From Lentilactobacillus hilgardii DSM 20176 = ATCC 8290 (GTDB taxonomy: Bacteria; Bacillota; Bacilli; Lactobacillales; Lactobacillaceae), in contig NZ_GG669998.1 in the NCBI RefSeq assembly GCF_000159315.1, forward strand, positions 1-32,194: a stretch of 32,194 nucleotides of DNA. Reading direction: 5' to 3'. The notes under the pieces were generated by a model. It was not told the DNA's origin and did no database searches. It saw nothing but the letters and a program-made list of their open reading frames with translations. This document shows positions 190-22,571 of this stretch, one piece after another (position 1 is the first letter of the stretch; every line of letters starts with the position of its first letter). The translations under genes were made by a program, and so were the position numbers.

Positions 190-262
190 GCCGTTTTAGC
201 TCAGAAGGTAGAGTATTTCCATGGTAAGGAAAAGGTCCCGGGTTCAAATCCCGGAAACGGCT
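190..262 (+). tRNA. tRNA-Thr (anticodon GGT), prophage integration target
   Basis: A complete 73-nt cloverleaf can be drawn. The acceptor is GCCGTTT with AAACGGC, followed by T as discriminator. The D-arm stem is GCTC/GAGT. The anticodon arm is TTTCC-ATGGTAA-GGAAA, giving anticodon GGT. The T-arm is CCGGG-TTCAAAT-CCCGG. CCA is not encoded. The integrase gene lies just downstream and points toward it, so the 3' half of this gene is almost certainly the bacterial attachment site, rebuilt by phage DNA on integration. A weak upstream promoter, TTGTTT (113-118) and TAAGAT (136-141) with 17-bp spacing, is possible. Confidence 0.95.
225..262. other. Probable attL core (3' half of tRNA-Thr)
   Basis: Tyrosine-integrase prophages commonly use the 3' portion of a tRNA gene as the crossover core. 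Here phage-type sequence (integrase and arm-like repeats) starts directly after the tRNA 3' end. The exact core limits cannot be fixed because attR is not in the window. The given interval is the anticodon-stem-to-3'-end segment that would be expected to recur at the right end. Confidence 0.6.
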
Positions 263-446: not shown

Positions 447-472
447 AAAAAGGAAACCAATTAACGGTTTCC
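446..472 (-). terminator. Terminator of the integrase gene
   Basis: Read on the minus strand, the stem GGAAACC/GGTTTCC (472-466 with 458-452) with a 7-nt loop is followed by six T residues (451-446). It overlaps the integrase stop codon at 461-463. Confidence 0.8.
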
Positions 473-1600
473 CTTTGACACTTGGTTAACTTTTTCCTGT
501 GGCAATAATTTATCAAGTTCGTTTCGAATCTGTTCATCATTTTTGGCCTTGTACTCATCAATTAAATAAGAATACGTACGAGTGGTTGTAGATATGTTGG
601 TATGTCCTAATCGTTTGGATATGATATAAATATCAATTCCACATGCTAACAGATACGCAACGTGAGTATGTCTGAGAGAGTGGAAATGAAATCCTGACCT
701 ATTGATACCTAAGTCTTTTAAACTCTGCCTGAGCTTTTTATTTAGGGCACTAGAAGAAGGAATGGTGTTAAACTGATTCATAAAAACCATGGATTTATCT
801 TTACGATGATCTTTTAATATTTTTAAGTCATCAAGCAAATTGTTATTCACGGAAATAATACGCTTGGATCCTTCATTCTTTGTATCTTGAAATCCACCAC
901 CCTGCATATAGTTCCAAGACTTGCTAATACTAATGGTCTTAAAATTAAAATTGATATCCTTCCAAGTCAAGGCCTGAATTTCTCCTAATCTTGCACCAGT
1001 CAGCAAAGCGGTTAAGATCATAAAACTGGAGGTATAGTTAGGATTTAAATTATTTTCTAAATAAGAGGCTAACCTTTTAACTTCATCAATATTTAGATAT
1101 TCAATTTTTTTGTCTCGAGATTTATCATAAATAATTTCGACGCGTTGGGTGAAATCCTTATGAATTAAATCATCCAAAATAGCATTTTGAGCAGCAGCTC
1201 GAACTAATGAATTAACCTTATAAACGGTGTCTTTAGCATGATCACTTCCATAATGGTTAATAAACTGCTGATATCTTTGTCGGTTCATATTCTTTAATGA
1301 AGTTTTTCCAAAATATTTATGCAGTACTCGACTAGTAATCTTATACCTTTGCTGAGTCATGAATTTAATTTTTGGTTCTTTATAAGTGTGATAAAAGTAA
1401 TCAAAGTAATCTGCAAATGGACGATCCCCGGTAGCAATGTTTAAACCGTTCTGATAATCAATTTCAACTCGGCTAGCAAATAACCTAGCTGCTGACTTTG
1501 TTTTAAAACCACTTTTACTTTTTTCACGCTCATGGCCATCCATGTCATAGTAATAATACCTAACTTGATAGCCAGTTCCGCGTTTGCGTATCGAAGCCAT
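461..1600 (-). CDS. int: Tyrosine recombinase / phage integrase
   Basis: Site-specific recombinase that inserts the phage genome into the tRNA-Thr gene and, with a directionality factor, excises it. The protein has 379 residues, normal for the Tn916/phage type. An N-terminal AP2-like arm-binding domain comes first (residues 1-60), then a core-binding domain (about 60-160) and the catalytic domain. Catalytic residues visible are R204 in ARLGE, K241, H307 and R310 in HSLRH, H333 in LGH, and the nucleophile Y343 in RTYSY. The frame is open further upstream, but the ATG at 1598-1600 is chosen because GGGAGG stands seven bases before it and the protein then begins MASIRKRG, as family members do. 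No excisionase gene is recognised nearby. Confidence 0.96.
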   Translation of the reverse strand: MASIRKRGTGYQVRYYYYDMDGHEREKSKSGFKTKSAARLFASRVEIDYQNGLNIATGDRPFADYFDYFYHTYKEPKIKFMTQQRYKITSRVLHKYFGKTSLKNMNRQRYQQFINHYGSDHAKDTVYKVNSLVRAAAQNAILDDLIHKDFTQRVEIIYDKSRDKKIEYLNIDEVKRLASYLENNLNPNYTSSFMILTALLTGARLGEIQALTWKDINFNFKTISISKSWNYMQGGGFQDTKNEGSKRIISVNNNLLDDLKILKDHRKDKSMVFMNQFNTIPSSSALNKKLRQSLKDLGINRSGFHFHSLRHTHVAYLLACGIDIYIISKRLGHTNISTTTRTYSYLIDEYKAKNDEQIRNELDKLLPQEKVNQVSKGNR

Positions 1601-1813
1601 AAGTGGACCTCCCTTGTAAAATATTTTTAAACATGTAAAAAAGATTTGCGGCGTCACCTTCTTTCGGTTACAATTAAATACGTAAAAAGGGTATACTTAT
1701 CCCTTAGACCATTGTGTATGCGTCCCATTATCTTGGCGGGTAGGGGGATGCACTTTTGTATACATAGTACTAGAATGTTAGTCTATTATTACTTAGTTGT
1801 AGATTTGATTTTT

Positions 1814-1861: not shown

Positions 1862-2668
1862 GTGAATAAAAAAATTGGTAAGGCGATTTGGACAGTAGTC
1901 ATACTAGCATGTTTTTCACTGCTTATTTATCTTACAATTTTTGATAGGCTTCCTAAGGGATTAGATTCTAAAAAAATAGTTACTGTTTTTTCACTGACAA
2001 CAACTTTAGTTATATATGGCTATAATCATTGGAAGTTCCTATTTGTGTACTGGAGAAAGTTTTGTGCATGTCTGTGGGGGGATACTGTTAGTTGGACAGG
2101 AAAGTATGTCTTTTACTTGGATGCGGAACAAGATTTTGTACAACTCGCAAAGGAATTCCGAAAAAAAGTGTTAAATCAAACAGACGTTACGTGCGAAGAC
2201 GGTAAGATTCAAAAAGATAGCGCAAATTTTACATTTAATTTTAAAGGTTTACAAAATAAGATTAAAATCGAACGAAGTTCTGCTAATGACTATGATGAAA
2301 TCGTTTTGAAATATAGTTCAAGCACATCTTATCGAGATTCAAAAAAACAGGTAGAGAATTTTCAGAAAATAATAAAAAAACTTTCGGCTGCTTCTCCTCA
2401 GCAGATTGACCTATCAAAATTTAGAGACTCGCAGGGCCTTAAAGAACGTCTCTCTGTTACTATTTCTATGAGAAAATATAATCCATTCTATCGTTTAACA
2501 TTGCGACACTTTGATGGTGACGAAGGTATATTGAAATGGAATATGGTACTAACGGAGGATGATTTAAAAGTTGAAATTAAGAAACATATGTTAAGGGCTA
2601 CAAGTTCTAACGAAGAAAAGATTATTGATGTTTTGAAGAACTATATTGCCTTGTCTACTGTTGGCTAA
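1862..2668 (+). CDS. Uncharacterised protein with two N-terminal membrane segments
   Basis: The 268-residue product has two hydrophobic stretches near the N-terminus (about residues 7-24 and 37-54) and then a basic segment. The remaining 200 residues are soluble and beta-rich in appearance, so a membrane-anchored cytosolic domain is likely. The GTG start is chosen because AGGGGG lies eight bases upstream; upstream in-frame codons lack a ribosome site. It is read rightward, opposite to all neighbouring lysogeny genes, from its own extended -10 promoter, and its end overlaps the end of the convergent 2655-3329 gene by 14 bases. I do not recognise the family. Position and topology suit an accessory gene such as superinfection exclusion or anti-phage defence, but no diagnostic motif is visible. 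Confidence 0.75.
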   Translation: MNKKIGKAIWTVVILACFSLLIYLTIFDRLPKGLDSKKIVTVFSLTTTLVIYGYNHWKFLFVYWRKFCACLWGDTVSWTGKYVFYLDAEQDFVQLAKEFRKKVLNQTDVTCEDGKIQKDSANFTFNFKGLQNKIKIERSSANDYDEIVLKYSSSTSYRDSKKQVENFQKIIKKLSAASPQQIDLSKFRDSQGLKERLSVTISMRKYNPFYRLTLRHFDGDEGILKWNMVLTEDDLKVEIKKHMLRATSSNEEKIIDVLKNYIALSTVG

Positions 2669-3329
2669 TTGCAATTAAGGTATCAATAGCAAGCTGCAAG
2701 TATGGTTGTTCAACACCGTCATCGTTAAGCTTGCTGTATATAACCAGTGTCCCTTTTTTAGAAAAACCAATTGTACGTTGTTCACCATCTACATCGATCT
2801 TTGCCATTAGGTAAGTTGCATTGTCTTTGTCGATAGCGTCAATTACCTCGTCATTGTCTTGTACACCGCTACCGAAGAAATGCTTTGTATCCACATCGGT
2901 GTCGTCATCGACATTAAAATAGATACCACTAGCACGGACTTCAAAGCGAGATATTTTAGTGAAATCAAAGTCATAAACACCGGATGTGGCTAACTTAGGA
3001 CCATAAGAGTTTATGAGTTCTTTCATGAATCCCTTAGAGATGATCGAGGGTGCCATTAAAAATAAGATTCCTTTTGTTTGATCGTAAAATGCGGGGAAAG
3101 TAGTGGATTTCTTGTATTCATCAGTAGGAACAAATTTTCCAGTTTCCATATCCTTCACGAGGATATCTTCGTTGACGGTAATATTGTAGGTACAAGTGAA
3201 AGGCTGCAAAATGTCATTACTAATTGTTAACGTGTTTCCAGCTAGTGCAATGCTTCCTGATGAGTCGGGAAAGCTTACAGAGTCAGTAAAGTCAAAGCGA
3301 GAGACTTTTTGAACACTTAATGATTTCAA
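2655..3329 (-). CDS. Uncharacterised acidic cytosolic protein (cargo gene)
   Basis: The 224-residue protein has no signal peptide, membrane segment or recognisable motif. It is acidic, with a DDDTDVD cluster near residue 140, and appears to alternate short strands, so a beta-rich soluble fold is likely. The TTG start at 3327-3329 is well supported by AGGAGG seven bases before it. It is the last gene of the leftward cargo series and converges on the 2-TM gene, the stops overlapping by 14 bases. A tRNA T-arm-like fold lies 47 bases upstream of its start. I cannot assign a function. A role together with its convergent neighbour is possible only by position. Confidence 0.75.
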   Translation of the reverse strand: MKSLSVQKVSRFDFTDSVSFPDSSGSIALAGNTLTISNDILQPFTCTYNITVNEDILVKDMETGKFVPTDEYKKSTTFPAFYDQTKGILFLMAPSIISKGFMKELINSYGPKLATSGVYDFDFTKISRFEVRASGIYFNVDDDTDVDTKHFFGSGVQDNDEVIDAIDKDNATYLMAKIDVDGEQRTIGFSKKGTLVIYSKLNDDGVEQPYLQLAIDTLIAISQQ

Positions 3330-3375
3330 AGGGTTTCCTCCTAATTGTTAATATTGTTGAAAAATTTTGTTCTAA

Positions 3376-3418
3376 TCCCTCCGCTGGAGTTGAACCAGTG
3401 CTGGCTACCGAGGAGGGT
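3376..3418 (-). other. tRNA acceptor/T-arm-like fold upstream of the 3329 gene
   Basis: On the minus strand CCCTCC (3417-3412) pairs with GGAGGG (3382-3377). Inside, CTGG-TTCAACT-CCAG forms a T-arm whose loop matches the tRNA consensus TTCRANY and is closed by the usual G-C pair. About 12-13 linker bases stand where D and anticodon arms would be, and A follows as a discriminator-like base. It lies in the gap between two minus-strand genes. It is not a functional tRNA. Its role is unknown. Confidence 0.5.
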
Positions 3419-3427
3419 GGACATTAT

Positions 3428-3826
3428 TTAGAACCAGCCCTTTGATTCAGGGTAAGTATATAAAATCTTGAATTGATTAGTGTTGGTCCAGTTGACGGAA
3501 TATTCTTTATTTTTGCTAGTGTACTTTTCATGTTTGCCACCAGTAACTTGCCAACTAACGCCCCCTACGCCACGGAACCAAGTACGTACAGTTTCCCCAT
3601 TATGGATGGTTACATGTCCGGCAACATAAAGGCCACCATGCTTGTAGTATTTAACGATATTGGCACGCTTAGTTTTTTTGACTCTTATTTTGTACTCTTT
3701 CATGTAATGTTTCTCAATCAAATTAAGCGTTAATTTCTTAGCACTAGCAGTTAGCGGTTGACTTATGAATGTTGTACCACCGAAAGTAATTAACACAAGG
3801 GACAACATCAAACTTTTTTTGAACAA
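3428..3826 (-). CDS. Small secreted protein, lysogenic-conversion candidate
   Basis: The 132-residue product has a clear Sec signal peptide: a Lys-Lys N-terminus, a hydrophobic core of about 15 residues, and a likely cleavage after TASA near residue 29. The mature part is about 100 residues, basic, and rich in Lys, Tyr and Trp, with no Cys. The frame is open to 3841, but the TTG at 3824-3826 is the likely start because GGAGG lies eight bases before it and the upstream codons are the ribosome site itself. It is a neighbour of another secreted gene (3928-4689) in the prophage's lysogenic region, a usual place for genes that alter the host surface. No named family is recognised. Confidence 0.75.
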   Translation of the reverse strand: MFKKSLMLSLVLITFGGTTFISQPLTASAKKLTLNLIEKHYMKEYKIRVKKTKRANIVKYYKHGGLYVAGHVTIHNGETVRTWFRGVGGVSWQVTGGKHEKYTSKNKEYSVNWTNTNQFKILYTYPESKGWF

Positions 3827-3877
3827 TACTTTCACCTCCAAATTCAGCTTTTAAAGACGTCAGTATTTGGTCTGTGC

Positions 3878-3911
3878 GCATCCTACTTCCTAACGGGAGG
3901 GGATGCTTTTT
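3878..3911 (+). terminator. Plus-strand intrinsic terminator between two minus-strand genes
   Basis: GCATCC (3878-3883) pairs with GGATGC (3901-3906). Inside, CTTCC-TAAC-GGGAG extends the stem. Six T residues follow on the plus strand. On the minus strand, the direction of the flanking genes, the hairpin is not followed by T residues. It would stop rightward transcripts, such as read-through from the plus-strand gene at 1862-2668. Confidence 0.65.
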
Positions 3912-3927
3912 TATAGTAGCTATTCTT

Positions 3928-4689
3928 TTATTTAACGGTTAAGTTACTAAGATAAGTCCAGCCATAATCATCCATTTCTTTTGCCATTGGTTGAACCCAA
4001 ACCTTGTCTGAACCTTTAAATTGAATGGCATCATATGTGGGACCACTTGTTAATGGATAGTTGTTTTCTTTGCTAGGGTTATCATGCAAAGGTACTTCAT
4101 CGTCTCCAGGTGTTTGAACCATTAAATTTTTATGAGGTGCAAATTTTAAATATCCACGCCAAACCCATCCTGATATTCGTCCATGCTTTATATGGTAATA
4201 AACTGCATAGTTATGTTTATTTGATTTTGATTCGTAATTTACTGTCCATGTTGTGTGTTTATATTTATTAAGATAAAATTTTATAGTATTGCTTGATGGT
4301 GAAGAGAAAACTGGAACATACCCCAAAACTTTTCTTCTCCACAACATATTCGGCATTCTTTGGTAACTAGAATTTTCATTTACACTCCAAAAATTATTTT
4401 TTAATATCATATAGTAGACATCTTTGCCTGAATGAAAATCAGAAGTAGATATGATCCATCCACCATATTTTGAAGAATAACTGTCAGACGTTAACCATGT
4501 TCCCTTATGTATAATAAAGGACTTTAGCAATACATCCCTTGAAGGCTTGCTTCCTTTTTTCATCTTATATACTATCGTATCGGCATACATCTGATCCTTA
4601 TAACTTGCATTAACTGATGTTGTGAATTTCATTTCAAATGCGAACATTGAAATAAAGGCCAAGCATAAAGGCAATAACCATTTTTTCAT
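3928..4689 (-). CDS. Secreted surface protein with SH3/GW-like segments
   Basis: The 253-residue protein starts with a signal peptide (MKKWLLPLC, then a hydrophobic core, likely cleavage after NASA-type residues near position 29). The mature part is basic and rich in Trp and Tyr. It contains SGWVWRGYLKF near residues 172-182, a pattern seen in GW/SH3-like cell-wall-binding modules of lactobacillus extracellular proteins. There is no LPxTG signal, so non-covalent wall association or release is expected. ATG at 4687-4689 has AGGAGG eight bases upstream. It is followed leftward by a second secreted protein. It may modify the lysogen's surface, but this is inference; no catalytic motif is visible. 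Confidence 0.75.
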   Translation of the reverse strand: MKKWLLPLCLAFISMFAFEMKFTTSVNASYKDQMYADTIVYKMKKGSKPSRDVLLKSFIIHKGTWLTSDSYSSKYGGWIISTSDFHSGKDVYYMILKNNFWSVNENSSYQRMPNMLWRRKVLGYVPVFSSPSSNTIKFYLNKYKHTTWTVNYESKSNKHNYAVYYHIKHGRISGWVWRGYLKFAPHKNLMVQTPGDDEVPLHDNPSKENNYPLTSGPTYDAIQFKGSDKVWVQPMAKEMDDYGWTYLSNLTVK

Positions 4690-4721
4690 AAATACATCCT
4701 CCTCATTTTAATATATAAATG

Positions 4722-4755
4722 ATACCGCTAATTACTCTGCTTGGCGGTATTTTTT
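4722..4755 (+). terminator. Plus-strand intrinsic terminator in the leftward cargo region
   Basis: ATACCGC (4722-4728) pairs with GCGGTAT (4744-4750), extended by one T-G pair, and is followed by a T run at 4750-4755. Like the hairpin at 3878, it faces against the direction of the adjoining genes. Its T run overlaps the stop codon of the 103-residue gene. Confidence 0.6.
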
Positions 4756-5065
4756 ATTCAAATTCTATCTCAACGACGGATTCTTCCAACTGATCAAGCA
4801 TTTCATTAATTGAAATAAAGTGCCGCCACTTATTAGGATCATGTTTAGCAAGTCCCTTAAAGTTACTGCTGATTTTGTTGTGAATATTTACTAGAAATTT
4901 GTAATACATATTTGCTGCTTCACGATCAATTCTTTCCTGTAGCCAACGTTTGTCTAAAGAGCGTTGGTTATTTTTTTCGGTCAAATATTGTAAACATTTG
5001 CTAGTAAATAAATTTTCAACATTGCTATTTTCTTTTAAATAATCTCTCAATTCTTCAATATCCAT
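4754..5065 (-). CDS. Small acidic helical protein, unknown
   Basis: The 103-residue protein is charged and probably all-helical, with no signal or membrane segment. The ATG at 5063-5065 has AAGGAGG eight bases upstream. It sits directly downstream (leftward) of the repressor gene but is separated from it by a terminator and by a tRNA-like fold, so it may have its own transcript. Small genes beside a repressor often act in immunity or superinfection control, but nothing in the sequence proves this. Family not recognised. Confidence 0.7.
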   Translation of the reverse strand: MDIEELRDYLKENSNVENLFTSKCLQYLTEKNNQRSLDKRWLQERIDREAANMYYKFLVNIHNKISSNFKGLAKHDPNKWRHFISINEMLDQLEESVVEIEFE

Positions 5066-5094
5066 TTAAAAATCCTCCTTAAAATTAATTAATT

Positions 5095-5136
5095 GACTAT
5101 TTAGGACTCGAACCTAAGTAAACCACCTGGTTAGTC
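5095..5136 (-). other. tRNA acceptor/T-arm-like fold upstream of the 5065 gene
   Basis: On the minus strand GACTA (5136-5132) pairs with TAGTC (5099-5095). TTAGG-TTCGAGT-CCTAA (5117-5101) forms a five-pair T-arm with a perfect TTCRANY loop and the expected G-C closing pair. A 13-base linker stands in place of the D and anticodon arms. The layout is nearly the same as at 3376-3418, although the sequences differ. It lies between the repressor terminator and the ribosome site of the 103-residue gene. Confidence 0.55.
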
Positions 5137-5160
5137 GAAACGTGTGTTCTTTTGAAGCTT

Positions 5161-5189
5161 TAAATAAAGCCCCCAAAATGTGGGAGCTT
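5161..5189 (-). terminator. Terminator of the repressor gene
   Basis: On the minus strand AAGCTCCC pairs with GGGGGCTT (one T-G pair) around a 7-nt loop and is followed by TTATTTA. It starts inside the stop codon of the repressor gene. Confidence 0.65.
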
Positions 5190-5895
5190 ATAAGATTACT
5201 TTGCCAATGACATTTACTTCATCACAATCGAAGTGCATATCATCATAGGCTTCATTAATTGACCTTAAAGTAACGGTATTATCTTCATTTACATATATCT
5301 TTTTACAAGTGACACCAATATCGCGGATGTGGACAATCGCAATTTCACCATCCTCAACTTCTGGCTGGTAGTGGATAAAAACTTGACTACCCTTTTTTAA
5401 GAGCGGTTCCATTGAATCACCATCCACAGTAATTAATTCATCTGCACCGGCAGGAACTTTTTCGCCGGCAATCATTTTATGAATTAATTGGGTATCTTGA
5501 TCCTCACCGTTAATAGGAGACCCGGCAGCAGTTGAACGCCCAGCAGGAATTTCAATCATAGGTTTGTGATCAAACATTGAAGATATTTTTTCATTATTCT
5601 GTTCGTCTAATTGATCACTGGCATAATTGTAAACTTTCTCTTGGCGTGAAGGGTGGAGCTGAAGCATTATTTTATTGGTATCACTAACGACTGAACTTTC
5701 TAACTTGACAATGTCTTCTGGTTTGATTCCCAATCCATCACATATTTTTATTATATTTTCCATTTTAGCATTCATAATGCCGCGATCCAGAATAGATCGG
5801 ATAGTTGTATAAGCCATGCCTATAGAATCGGCAAAAGCTTTAACGTTACCCGATTTTATTTCTATTAAATCTTTTAAATAATCTTCCTTGTTCAT
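5188..5895 (-). CDS. CI-like phage repressor, HTH plus S24 (LexA-like) autopeptidase
   Basis: Maintains lysogeny by binding the operators in the divergent promoter region, and is inactivated by RecA-stimulated self-cleavage. It has 235 residues. An N-terminal HTH covers about residues 5-65 (AFADSIGMAYTTIRSIL). A C-terminal S24 domain covers about 135-235, with nucleophile S161 in GDSMEP and general base K198 in VTCKK. Ala-Gly pairs at 118-119 and 124-125, in the linker, are candidate cleavage sites. ATG 5893-5895 has AGGAGG eight bases upstream. Its promoter contains operator O1 in the spacer, so it probably regulates itself. Both active-site residues are present, so induction by DNA damage is expected. 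Confidence 0.93.
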   Translation of the reverse strand: MNKEDYLKDLIEIKSGNVKAFADSIGMAYTTIRSILDRGIMNAKMENIIKICDGLGIKPEDIVKLESSVVSDTNKIMLQLHPSRQEKVYNYASDQLDEQNNEKISSMFDHKPMIEIPAGRSTAAGSPINGEDQDTQLIHKMIAGEKVPAGADELITVDGDSMEPLLKKGSQVFIHYQPEVEDGEIAIVHIRDIGVTCKKIYVNEDNTVTLRSINEAYDDMHFDCDEVNVIGKVIL

Positions 5896-21889: not shown

Positions 21890-22571
21890 AGGTGTTGTAT
21901 CTAGTGATGATGATGCTGAAGTATATGAATTCTTTGGCTATTCAACAGTTACTCCTTCCGCAGTTAAAGATGCGTTAAGCACTGCAAATGGTCAAAATAT
22001 TGTTGCCGAAATTAATTCACCGGGTGGCGATGTGTTTGCCGGTTCTGAGATATATACCGCACTTAAGAATTATACCGGTAATGTGGAAGTTGACATTGTT
22101 GGATTAGCAGCGAGTGCGGCCAGTGTCATTGCAATGGCTGGTGATACGATTAAAATTTCGCCAACGGCTCAATTAATGATTCATCGGGCTTCCACTGTAT
22201 CTCAAGGGAATGCAGATGATTTATCCAGCGATTTACAAGGCTTGAACTCGACTGATCAATCAATTGCAAATGTTTATGTACAACGAACGGGTTTGGATCC
22301 GCAAACAGTCATGCAAATGATGGCCAAGGAAACTTATATCAATGCAAAAGATGCCGTTGAACAAGGATTTGCAGACGAAATGATGTTTGACGATCAACCA
22401 GCCAAAGTTACTAATATGCTCTCGCCGGTTATGTTGAGTAATCAGGCAATTAGTAAAATTAAATCATTGTTAACCAAAGTAAAAGAAAAGCCTAAAGAAA
22501 CTAATAGCCAAACTAGTGACCAATTGCGATCACATAAGTTGGCTATTTTATTTAAGAAAGAAGGAAATTAA
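21870..22571 (+). CDS. ClpP-like prohead protease
   Basis: Cuts the capsid precursor during head maturation. The 233-residue protein has the ClpP/S14 fold: EINSPGGDVFAG (48-59), the nucleophile S82 in VGLAASAAS, and H105 in LMIHRAS. The third active residue is not obvious. The C-terminal 50 residues are a charged extension. Of several in-frame starts (GTG 21861, ATG 21864, ATG 21870), the last is chosen because AGGAGG at 21856-21861 then stands eight bases away. It overlaps the portal end. Confidence 0.93.
   Translation: MTTVPIKGVVSSDDDAEVYEFFGYSTVTPSAVKDALSTANGQNIVAEINSPGGDVFAGSEIYTALKNYTGNVEVDIVGLAASAASVIAMAGDTIKISPTAQLMIHRASTVSQGNADDLSSDLQGLNSTDQSIANVYVQRTGLDPQTVMQMMAKETYINAKDAVEQGFADEMMFDDQPAKVTNMLSPVMLSNQAISKIKSLLTKVKEKPKETNSQTSDQLRSHKLAILFKKEGN

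Follow-up and report, generated by a model that had tools for sequence, protein, structure and literature searches.

The window, by which we mean the whole stretch of 32,194 nt that was analysed, is a prophage of Lentilactobacillus hilgardii that adjoins a tRNA-Thr gene, and all main ORFs but one between its integrase and its repressor lie on the minus strand (Table 1). Two short elements, E1 and E2, stand between genes of the lysogeny module. ORFs 3428-3841, 2655-3329 and 4754-5065 had no Pfam or PADLOC match, and PADLOC matched none of the four window genes tested. A hairpin, recognised by eye, lies between the repressor stop codon and E2. We also observed a box, GAACACACGTTTC (GAACATATGTTT in relatives), that ends where E2 begins in the window (5137-5150, minus strand) and in loci L011-L017 and L051; it resembles the Gram-positive LexA box, and boxes of a similar kind are found close to elements in L060, L070, L086 and L227. 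A second recurrent leader motif, found before cargo genes, consists of a short hairpin GACC...GACGTC followed by about TTAAAAGCTGAAT, and was seen at 3839-3880 (minus strand) in the window and in L005, L007, L058, L066, L086 and L231. A tRNA-like element may or may not precede this leader, and by eye L066 and the window look like one leader with and without a 44-nt element.

Table 1. Features of the analysed stretch that are discussed in the text
Feature	Position	Strand	Description
tRNA-Thr gene	190..262		adjoins the prophage
Phage integrase	461..1657	(-)	opposite end of the lysogeny module containing E1 and E2
Gene behind E1	2655..3329	(-)	224 aa; 6 of 300 other Lactobacillaceae genomes have homologues
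E1	3377..3417	(-)	putative anticodon-armless tRNA-like element; acceptor CCCTCC/GGAGGG, D-loop-like GGTA, T-arm CTGG-TTCAACT-CCAG
Gene ahead of E1	3428..3841	(-)	137 aa; signal-peptide-like start (by eye); stop codon 10 nt before E1
Gene behind E2	4754..5065	(-)	103 aa
E2	5095..5136	(-)	putative element of the same family as E1; acceptor GACTA/TAGTC, GGTG, T-arm TTAGG-TTCGAGT-CCTAA
CI-type repressor	5188..5895	(-)	HTH and peptidase S24; stop codon ~50 nt before E2

Read on the minus strand, E1 (41 nt) runs CCCTCC TCGGTAGCCAGCA CTGG TTCAACT CCAG C GGAGGG and consists of an outer helix of 6 bp, a 13-nt linker, a T-stem of 4 bp (a fifth pair would be A.C) and a canonical 7-nt T-loop; the discriminator place is taken by an unpaired A (3376). 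E2 (42 nt) reads GACTA ACCAGGTGGTTTAC TTAGG TTCGAGT CCTAA A TAGTC. Common to both are an outer helix of 5-6 bp, a D-loop-like GGTR at a fixed place, 9 nt, and a canonical T-arm. A preliminary description of this DNA had reported two minihelices with this architecture and sequence, and both exist as it described them; it was also right that their stem sequences are unrelated, though the two elements align without a gap.

The architecture is rare by chance. When both strands were scanned for a T-loop TTCRANY, a T-stem of 4-5 Watson-Crick bp, a linker of 11-16 nt and an outer helix of at least 5 Watson-Crick bp, the window contained two such folds against a mean of 0.011 per dinucleotide-shuffled window; at least one fold was present in 11 of 1000 shuffled windows and two in none, and when GGT was required in the linker only 2 of 1000 shuffles had one fold. 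A looser scan, with G.U pairs and longer linkers allowed, yielded one extra place in the window (22231-22271, minus strand), which the covariance model R1 described below does not report. Folding of the single sequences gave z-scores for E1 and E2 of -1.66 and -0.48, respectively, in 46-nt pieces and of -1.22 and +0.73 in 81-nt pieces, and the minimum-energy fold keeps the outer helix of E1 without its T-arm and lacks the fold of E2. Because single-sequence folding does not favour the T-arm in either element, the case for E1 and E2 rests on comparison.

A Blast search with E2 identified Lactobacillus phage Lb (L051) and other prophages. Phage Lb has GATTA...TAATC and ATGGG-TCCGAGT-CCTAT in place of the GACTA...TAGTC and TTAGG-TTCGAGT-CCTAA of E2, substitutions that amount to compensatory changes in both helices. 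A third, unrelated-looking element was found in another genus (L008), in front of a distant homologue (28% identical) of the gene behind E1. All of the aligned elements have GGTR, 9-10 nt, and then GGTTCRANTCC or a close form. A direct DNA search with E1 had no match in phages and, in its own genus, matched only its own genome of 24.

From seven aligned rows (alignment A3) we built the covariance model R1, which the seven, with E1 and E2 among them, match by construction. R1 reported 48 places of at least 26 bits in 30 of 201 Lactobacillaceae genomes, the window's own included; at an E value of 0.01, 78 of the 201 genomes match, with tRNA pieces among the weaker matches. At the level of the order, 9 of 198 genomes match at 1e-4 (again including the window's own, and one outside the family), and at the level of the phylum only the window's own genome of 249 matches at an E value of 3e-5, so that, judged by strict scores, the family seldom occurs in other bacterial genomes. 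The window's own genome has a likely further element at G000:C111:124223-124268 (L230), with 35.9 bits. In ARAGORN runs that covered the window, 39 lactobacillus loci and 30 of the 80 viral loci among the matches listed, no match of at least 25.9 bits in the 39 lactobacillus loci overlapped a tRNA gene. Dropped before counting were L221 and L233, which by eye are tRNA-Arg gene fragments, and weak matches that were partial or inside tRNA genes.

Pairing is maintained throughout the family in spite of the variety of its stems. In alignment A5 (48 rows, 45 distinct), 95.3% of 491 cells were paired and 156 were changed on both sides, compared with 38-52% paired in slid controls; in A6 (57 rows, from viral contigs among the matches listed and one cyanophage), 95.9% were paired, compared with 48-54% when slid. 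Both alignments were fitted to models, and R1 and the second model, R2, lean towards D-loop and T-loop letters. Four of five A5 measures exceeded all of 500 shuffles; the number of A5 pairs with a double change was 10, compared with 8.8 in shuffles, and was reached in 80 of the 500, and two A6 measures do not exceed shuffles. RNAalifold, given the model-fitted alignment without its structure, returned the same two helices with double changes in 9 of 10 pairs. The preliminary description had argued for selection on structure and not chance, and had proposed shuffled controls and a search for compensatory changes in both stems among relatives; the shuffles, the double changes and the RNAalifold consensus all bear this out.

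On the sense strand G.U outnumbers A.C by 63 to 13 in A5 and A6 together, sets that were selected by models, and by 14 to 5 where the positions had not been chosen for their pairing. This excess suggests that a folded RNA of the coding strand is what has been kept. With both helix strands present and co-varying, we rejected a tRNA-gene or attachment-site remnant as the identity of the elements, since a cut attachment site would be expected to keep one strand only.

Beyond the helices, the elements carry several marks of a tRNA. The T-loop conforms to TNCRANY in 46 of 47 distinct elements from the window and the loci up to L096, G53-C61 is present in all 45 distinct rows of A5, and the T-loop is TTCGATT in 90 of 115 elements among the matches listed, the viral part of which was chosen with that loop. 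The D-loop-like GG stands at its place in 46 of the 47 distinct elements up to L096, compared with ~24 expected from shuffled linkers, with the proviso that the finding model favours GGT. The earlier term "tRNA-like minihelix" is thereby not only upheld but extended, because the GG of a D-loop is kept where it belongs. The T-stem has ~5 bp and the outer helix 5-6 bp; the junction pair of the latter is weak (unpaired in 14 of 43 A5 cells), and the distance from the T-loop to the outermost pair is 11-13 nt, centred on 12, in 103 of 115 parsed elements among the matches listed. The linker of ~13-15 nt, which contains the GGTR, has no room for both an anticodon arm and a D-stem. From these comparisons we assign E1 and E2 to a family of ~44-nt elements whose predicted fold mimics the upper half of a tRNA, with an acceptor helix, a T-arm and a D-loop-like GG and without an anticodon arm.

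Known RNA classes did not account for the elements. Neither ARAGORN nor Rfam called E1 or E2 a tRNA, ARAGORN found no tmRNA in the window, and an Rfam search of window positions 3300-5200 with E values up to 5 gave nothing on E1 or E2. At the gathering score, the only Rfam matches in the window and in a further 15 loci (a clear element being present in 13) were to tRNA and Glutamine-II, and none of these fell on an element; nor did any element match a tmRNA model. We accordingly rejected tmRNA pieces, riboswitches and other established RNA families for the elements tested. The elements are also not intrinsic terminators, because a T-run is lacking behind them: at least five T in the next 8 nt were found in 6 of 117 elements among the matches listed, compared with 122 of 2340 random places, and at least six T in none.

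Elements of this form also occur in viral contigs. A search of IMG/VR for the fixed D-loop letters CTGGTGA and a T-loop with two G-C pairs, with no other pairing required, matched at least 120 stretches in many viral contigs, and 80 loci are among the matches listed. At least two further T-stem pairs together with an outer helix of at least 5 pairs were present in 54 of 68 distinct testable hits among the matches listed, compared with 3.9% of 3400 controls with shuffled flanks. Model R2 placed elements in many of the viral loci among the matches listed, including six places in contig L101; the viral set comes in part from lactobacillus phages and repeats A5 elements (L105 repeats elements of L084). 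An R2 match in Lactococcus phage 949 was rejected, as it lies inside an annotated tRNA-Trp.

Similarity to one viral contig led to T7-like cyanophages. The 52 phage records included 35 mycobacteriophages, and Fowlmouth, the one of these that was examined, has candidate R2 matches of up to 27.4 bits. In the T7-like cyanophage S-TIP37, a full element of 32.7 bits separates the capsid gene from a small gene whose stop codon is overlapped by the acceptor strand, and a diverged form occurs in P-GSP1 (15.7 bits, E value 0.073). R2 found no match before the capsid gene of S-SBP1 or 9515-10a, where other hairpins without the usual T-loop occur, so the tRNA-like form is not essential at this place. Two further features were observed in this region. 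A block of ~70 nt, TTGG...GGATACC...GACGGTGGGA...GACCACAA, is conserved behind the element and before the capsid gene in L119, L234, L235, L236 and L239, and persists where another hairpin replaces the element. In T7-like cyanophages, Glutamine-II riboswitch aptamers precede the tRNA-like place, in the interval from psbA to the capsid gene (L239:2815-2868 and L236:2868-2922).

The most regular feature of the position of the elements is the stop codon in front of them. Among the matches listed, 128 hits with 117 distinct sequences, a same-strand stop codon of an ORF of at least 45 aa lies from -8 to 60 nt ahead of the element in 81, with a median of 7 nt; the same test on the opposite strand gave 20 of 128, and random places gave 414 of 2560 (16%). 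In the window and the loci up to L096, 30 of 50 hits begin within 20 nt of a stop codon. The elements stand at phage gene borders, oriented with the genes and in most cases only a few nt past a stop codon. No single upstream gene defines this position: in three other genomes, the stop codons of four homologues of ORF 3428-3841 (L047-L050) have no element behind them.

The preliminary description had looked in the other direction and placed both elements 30-47 bases upstream of minus-strand cargo genes. The distances are about as it stated (the next start codon lies 47 nt past the end of E1 and 29 nt past that of E2), but the leader role that this suggested for cargo genes is unsupported as a rule. 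The next start codon is found anywhere from 18 to 308 nt away, and none was found for 9 of the 50 hits; by comparison with relatives, the 10 nt between E1 and the preceding stop codon is the more constant feature. We considered whether the element might be a leader structure that controls the following gene through its translation or stability. A ribosome-binding site follows 30-50 nt on in the window and in some relatives, and the S-TIP37 element stands before a capsid gene, both of which would fit a leader. However, five of the six homologues of ORF 2655-3329 elsewhere have no element in front, the exception being that of L008, so that we rejected a leader of this gene as the general rule, and E2 is retained in related prophages (L014-L017, L021-L024) in which the gene behind it lacks its first 25 codons. 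Overall we regard a leader function as improbable. In all of these prophages the loss of the gene start looks like a short deletion with CAAT at both ends; for L014-L017, cassette exchange was rejected on this ground, by eye.

The most likely explanation for a tRNA-like fold just behind a stop codon is that the element is a minimal substrate for RNase P and RNase Z that splits polycistronic phage mRNA at gene borders, and we give this reading about an even chance of being correct. The element would be transcribed within a polycistronic phage message, host RNase P would cut on its 5′ side and host RNase Z on its 3′ side, and the transcript would thereby be split into separate mRNAs with defined ends, which would alter expression. 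In the lactobacillus prophages, the repressor, the cargo genes and the integrase would be separated from each other. The reading is based on the tRNA marks, on the place mostly just behind a stop codon and on the conservation of the element as sense-strand RNA. On precursors that lack CCA, RNase Z reads the tRNA elbow, according to the available text of PMC4810234. An encoded CCA at the 3′ end was found in only 1 of 117 elements among the matches listed, as expected for the RNase Z route. Several observations count against punctuation of the message. Among the matches listed, only 66 of 115 elements have A as N73 and only 26 of 115 have G-C as their first pair, and 47 of the 128 hits have no ORF of at least 45 aa ending in the tested stretch. 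In addition, a cut a few nt past a stop codon would expose a short 3′ end to exonucleases. The single-sequence folds of E1 and E2, the hairpins of another form in S-SBP1 and 9515-10a, and the pair measures that do not exceed the shuffles also count against it.

A rival explanation is that the element shields the upstream mRNA at its 3′ end, with a cut by RNase Z behind the element and added CCA giving a tRNA-like end that blocks exonucleases, as in some plant RNA viruses. The tight coupling to the upstream stop codon and the near absence of an encoded CCA would suit protection, but the same fold should also be a substrate for RNase P and hence be removed from the upstream mRNA, and we consider this explanation very improbable.

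Another possibility is that the product of interest is a stable small tRNA-like RNA acting in trans, for example as a decoy for tRNA-binding enzymes or for tRNA-directed defence or toxin proteins. The marks of the tRNA elbow, the several copies in some phages (six in L101 and four in L083, among the matches listed) and the abortive-infection genes in neighbouring cargo (Abi_2/AbiD, Abi_alpha) all speak for such an RNA, as does tRNA-like sequence adjoining two copies, in L086 and L122. However, an RNA that acts in trans would not need to lie a few nt past a stop codon or to point in the direction of the genes around it, and nucleases that cut anticodons would meet no anticodon arm. We judge this possibility unlikely. 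The tRNA-like sequences lie a few nt behind an element, at L086:4203-4268 (39.5 bits to the Rfam tRNA model) and, in L122, behind 7752.

The elements also occur in arrays, as with the four in L083. Ten proteins encoded behind or between elements were compared with Pfam, and five are phage integrases, one is Abi_2, one is Abi_alpha and three were unmatched; PADLOC assigned the two Abi proteins to AbiD and PDC-S47. The stretch L083:1-7000 combines the four elements with an Abi_2/AbiD-like gene and, by eye, a RelB/RelE-like pair, upstream of what by eye is an integrase-like ORF. To describe exchange, we compared 150 nt on each side of element pairs that were at least 93% identical. Among the matches listed, both flanks were common in 30 pairs, neither in 34, only the upstream flank in 7 and only the downstream flank in 1. 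Of the 34 pairs with neither flank in common, 28 represent one 47-nt type (AGCTTCTG...) from one genus and viral contigs, and 3 were exactly at the threshold downstream; 5 of the 7 upstream-only pairs come from one neighbouring gene family. Near-identical elements with unrelated flanks show that these borders also recombine, be it through a dedicated enzyme or through homology alone.

These pairs and arrays, together with the integrase genes behind elements in several prophages, support the view that the element is chiefly a recombination border, at which cassettes of gene plus element would be exchanged between phages, either by homology or through a site-specific recombinase that, as in integrons, works on a folded strand. 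Integron cassettes likewise have the order gene, then element, and their attC sites carry AAC/GTT core triplets at the two ends. Such triplets were present at both ends of only 6 of 117 elements among the matches listed, and the S-TIP37 element stands before a capsid gene, away from cargo arrays. Furthermore, recombination alone would leave unexplained the conservation of T-loop and D-loop, the length near 12 and the excess of G.U over A.C on one strand. We consider it rather unlikely that exchange is the main function. Both a recombination border and a free tRNA-like RNA may nevertheless hold in addition to punctuation of the message.

More broadly, and only tentatively, the elements may represent a widespread, previously undescribed class of phage RNA, anticodon-armless tRNAs behind stop codons that would punctuate messages for RNase P and RNase Z, setting off defence and cargo cassettes in temperate phages and the capsid message in T7-like phages, and that would also serve as joints for cassette swapping. 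With a conserved family of this kind, spread over many phages and usually placed behind stop codons, RNase P would take on a general role in the expression of phage genes. The elements would also offer natural minimal mimics of tRNA, and prophages could be searched with them for cargo and defence genes. No paper on such elements was recognised in the literature searched, which took in few subscription papers and no preprints. Folds in mRNA and phage RNA that are tRNA-like or cut by RNase P are known singly, namely T4 gene 32, phage M3 and C4 RNA, which are named in the available text of PMC11143913.

As far as sequence allows a classification, the elements are tRNA-like structures of a new form, neither tRNA nor tmRNA, since they lack an anticodon arm and a D-stem and have no tmRNA match. 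The tRNA-like domain of tmRNA has an acceptor helix, a stemless D-loop with UCUGG and a T-arm, and no anticodon arm. The elements share this plan, with their acceptor helix, T-arm, stemless D-loop and missing anticodon arm, but unlike tmRNA have no tag ORF and no partner piece. The mascRNA of MALAT1 is a tRNA-like 3′ structure behind an RNA that is cut by RNase P and RNase Z. Mitochondrial tRNA punctuation is comparable in that a tRNA-like fold with RNase P and RNase Z sites lies between coding sequences. In contrast to both, the elements belong to bacteriophages, lack the anticodon arm and have many unrelated stems, and their cutting is a prediction. Integron attC sites likewise keep structure despite variation in sequence, stand directly behind stop codons and form arrays, whereas in the elements the AAC/GTT end triplets are rare and the T-loop and D-loop of tRNA are conserved. 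The tRNA-like structures of plant RNA viruses, such as TYMV, mimic the tRNA elbow as the elements do (available text of PMC4810234). These viral structures contain pseudoknots and lie at the 3′ end of RNA genomes (available parts of PMC4810234 and PMC11143913), whereas the elements are internal, belong to DNA phages and are described by a pseudoknot-free model. There is also a likeness in form to the AT1 and minihelix model substrates of RNase P, which have the acceptor stacked on a T-arm, a canonical T-loop and ~12 bp from loop to helix end (available text of PMC11143913), a distance that is 11-13 nt in most of the elements. Compared with these models, the elements are natural, stand at phage gene borders, carry a conserved D-loop-like GG and a linker of ~13-15 nt, often have an outer helix of 5-6 bp whose junction pair is weak, and are predicted substrates.
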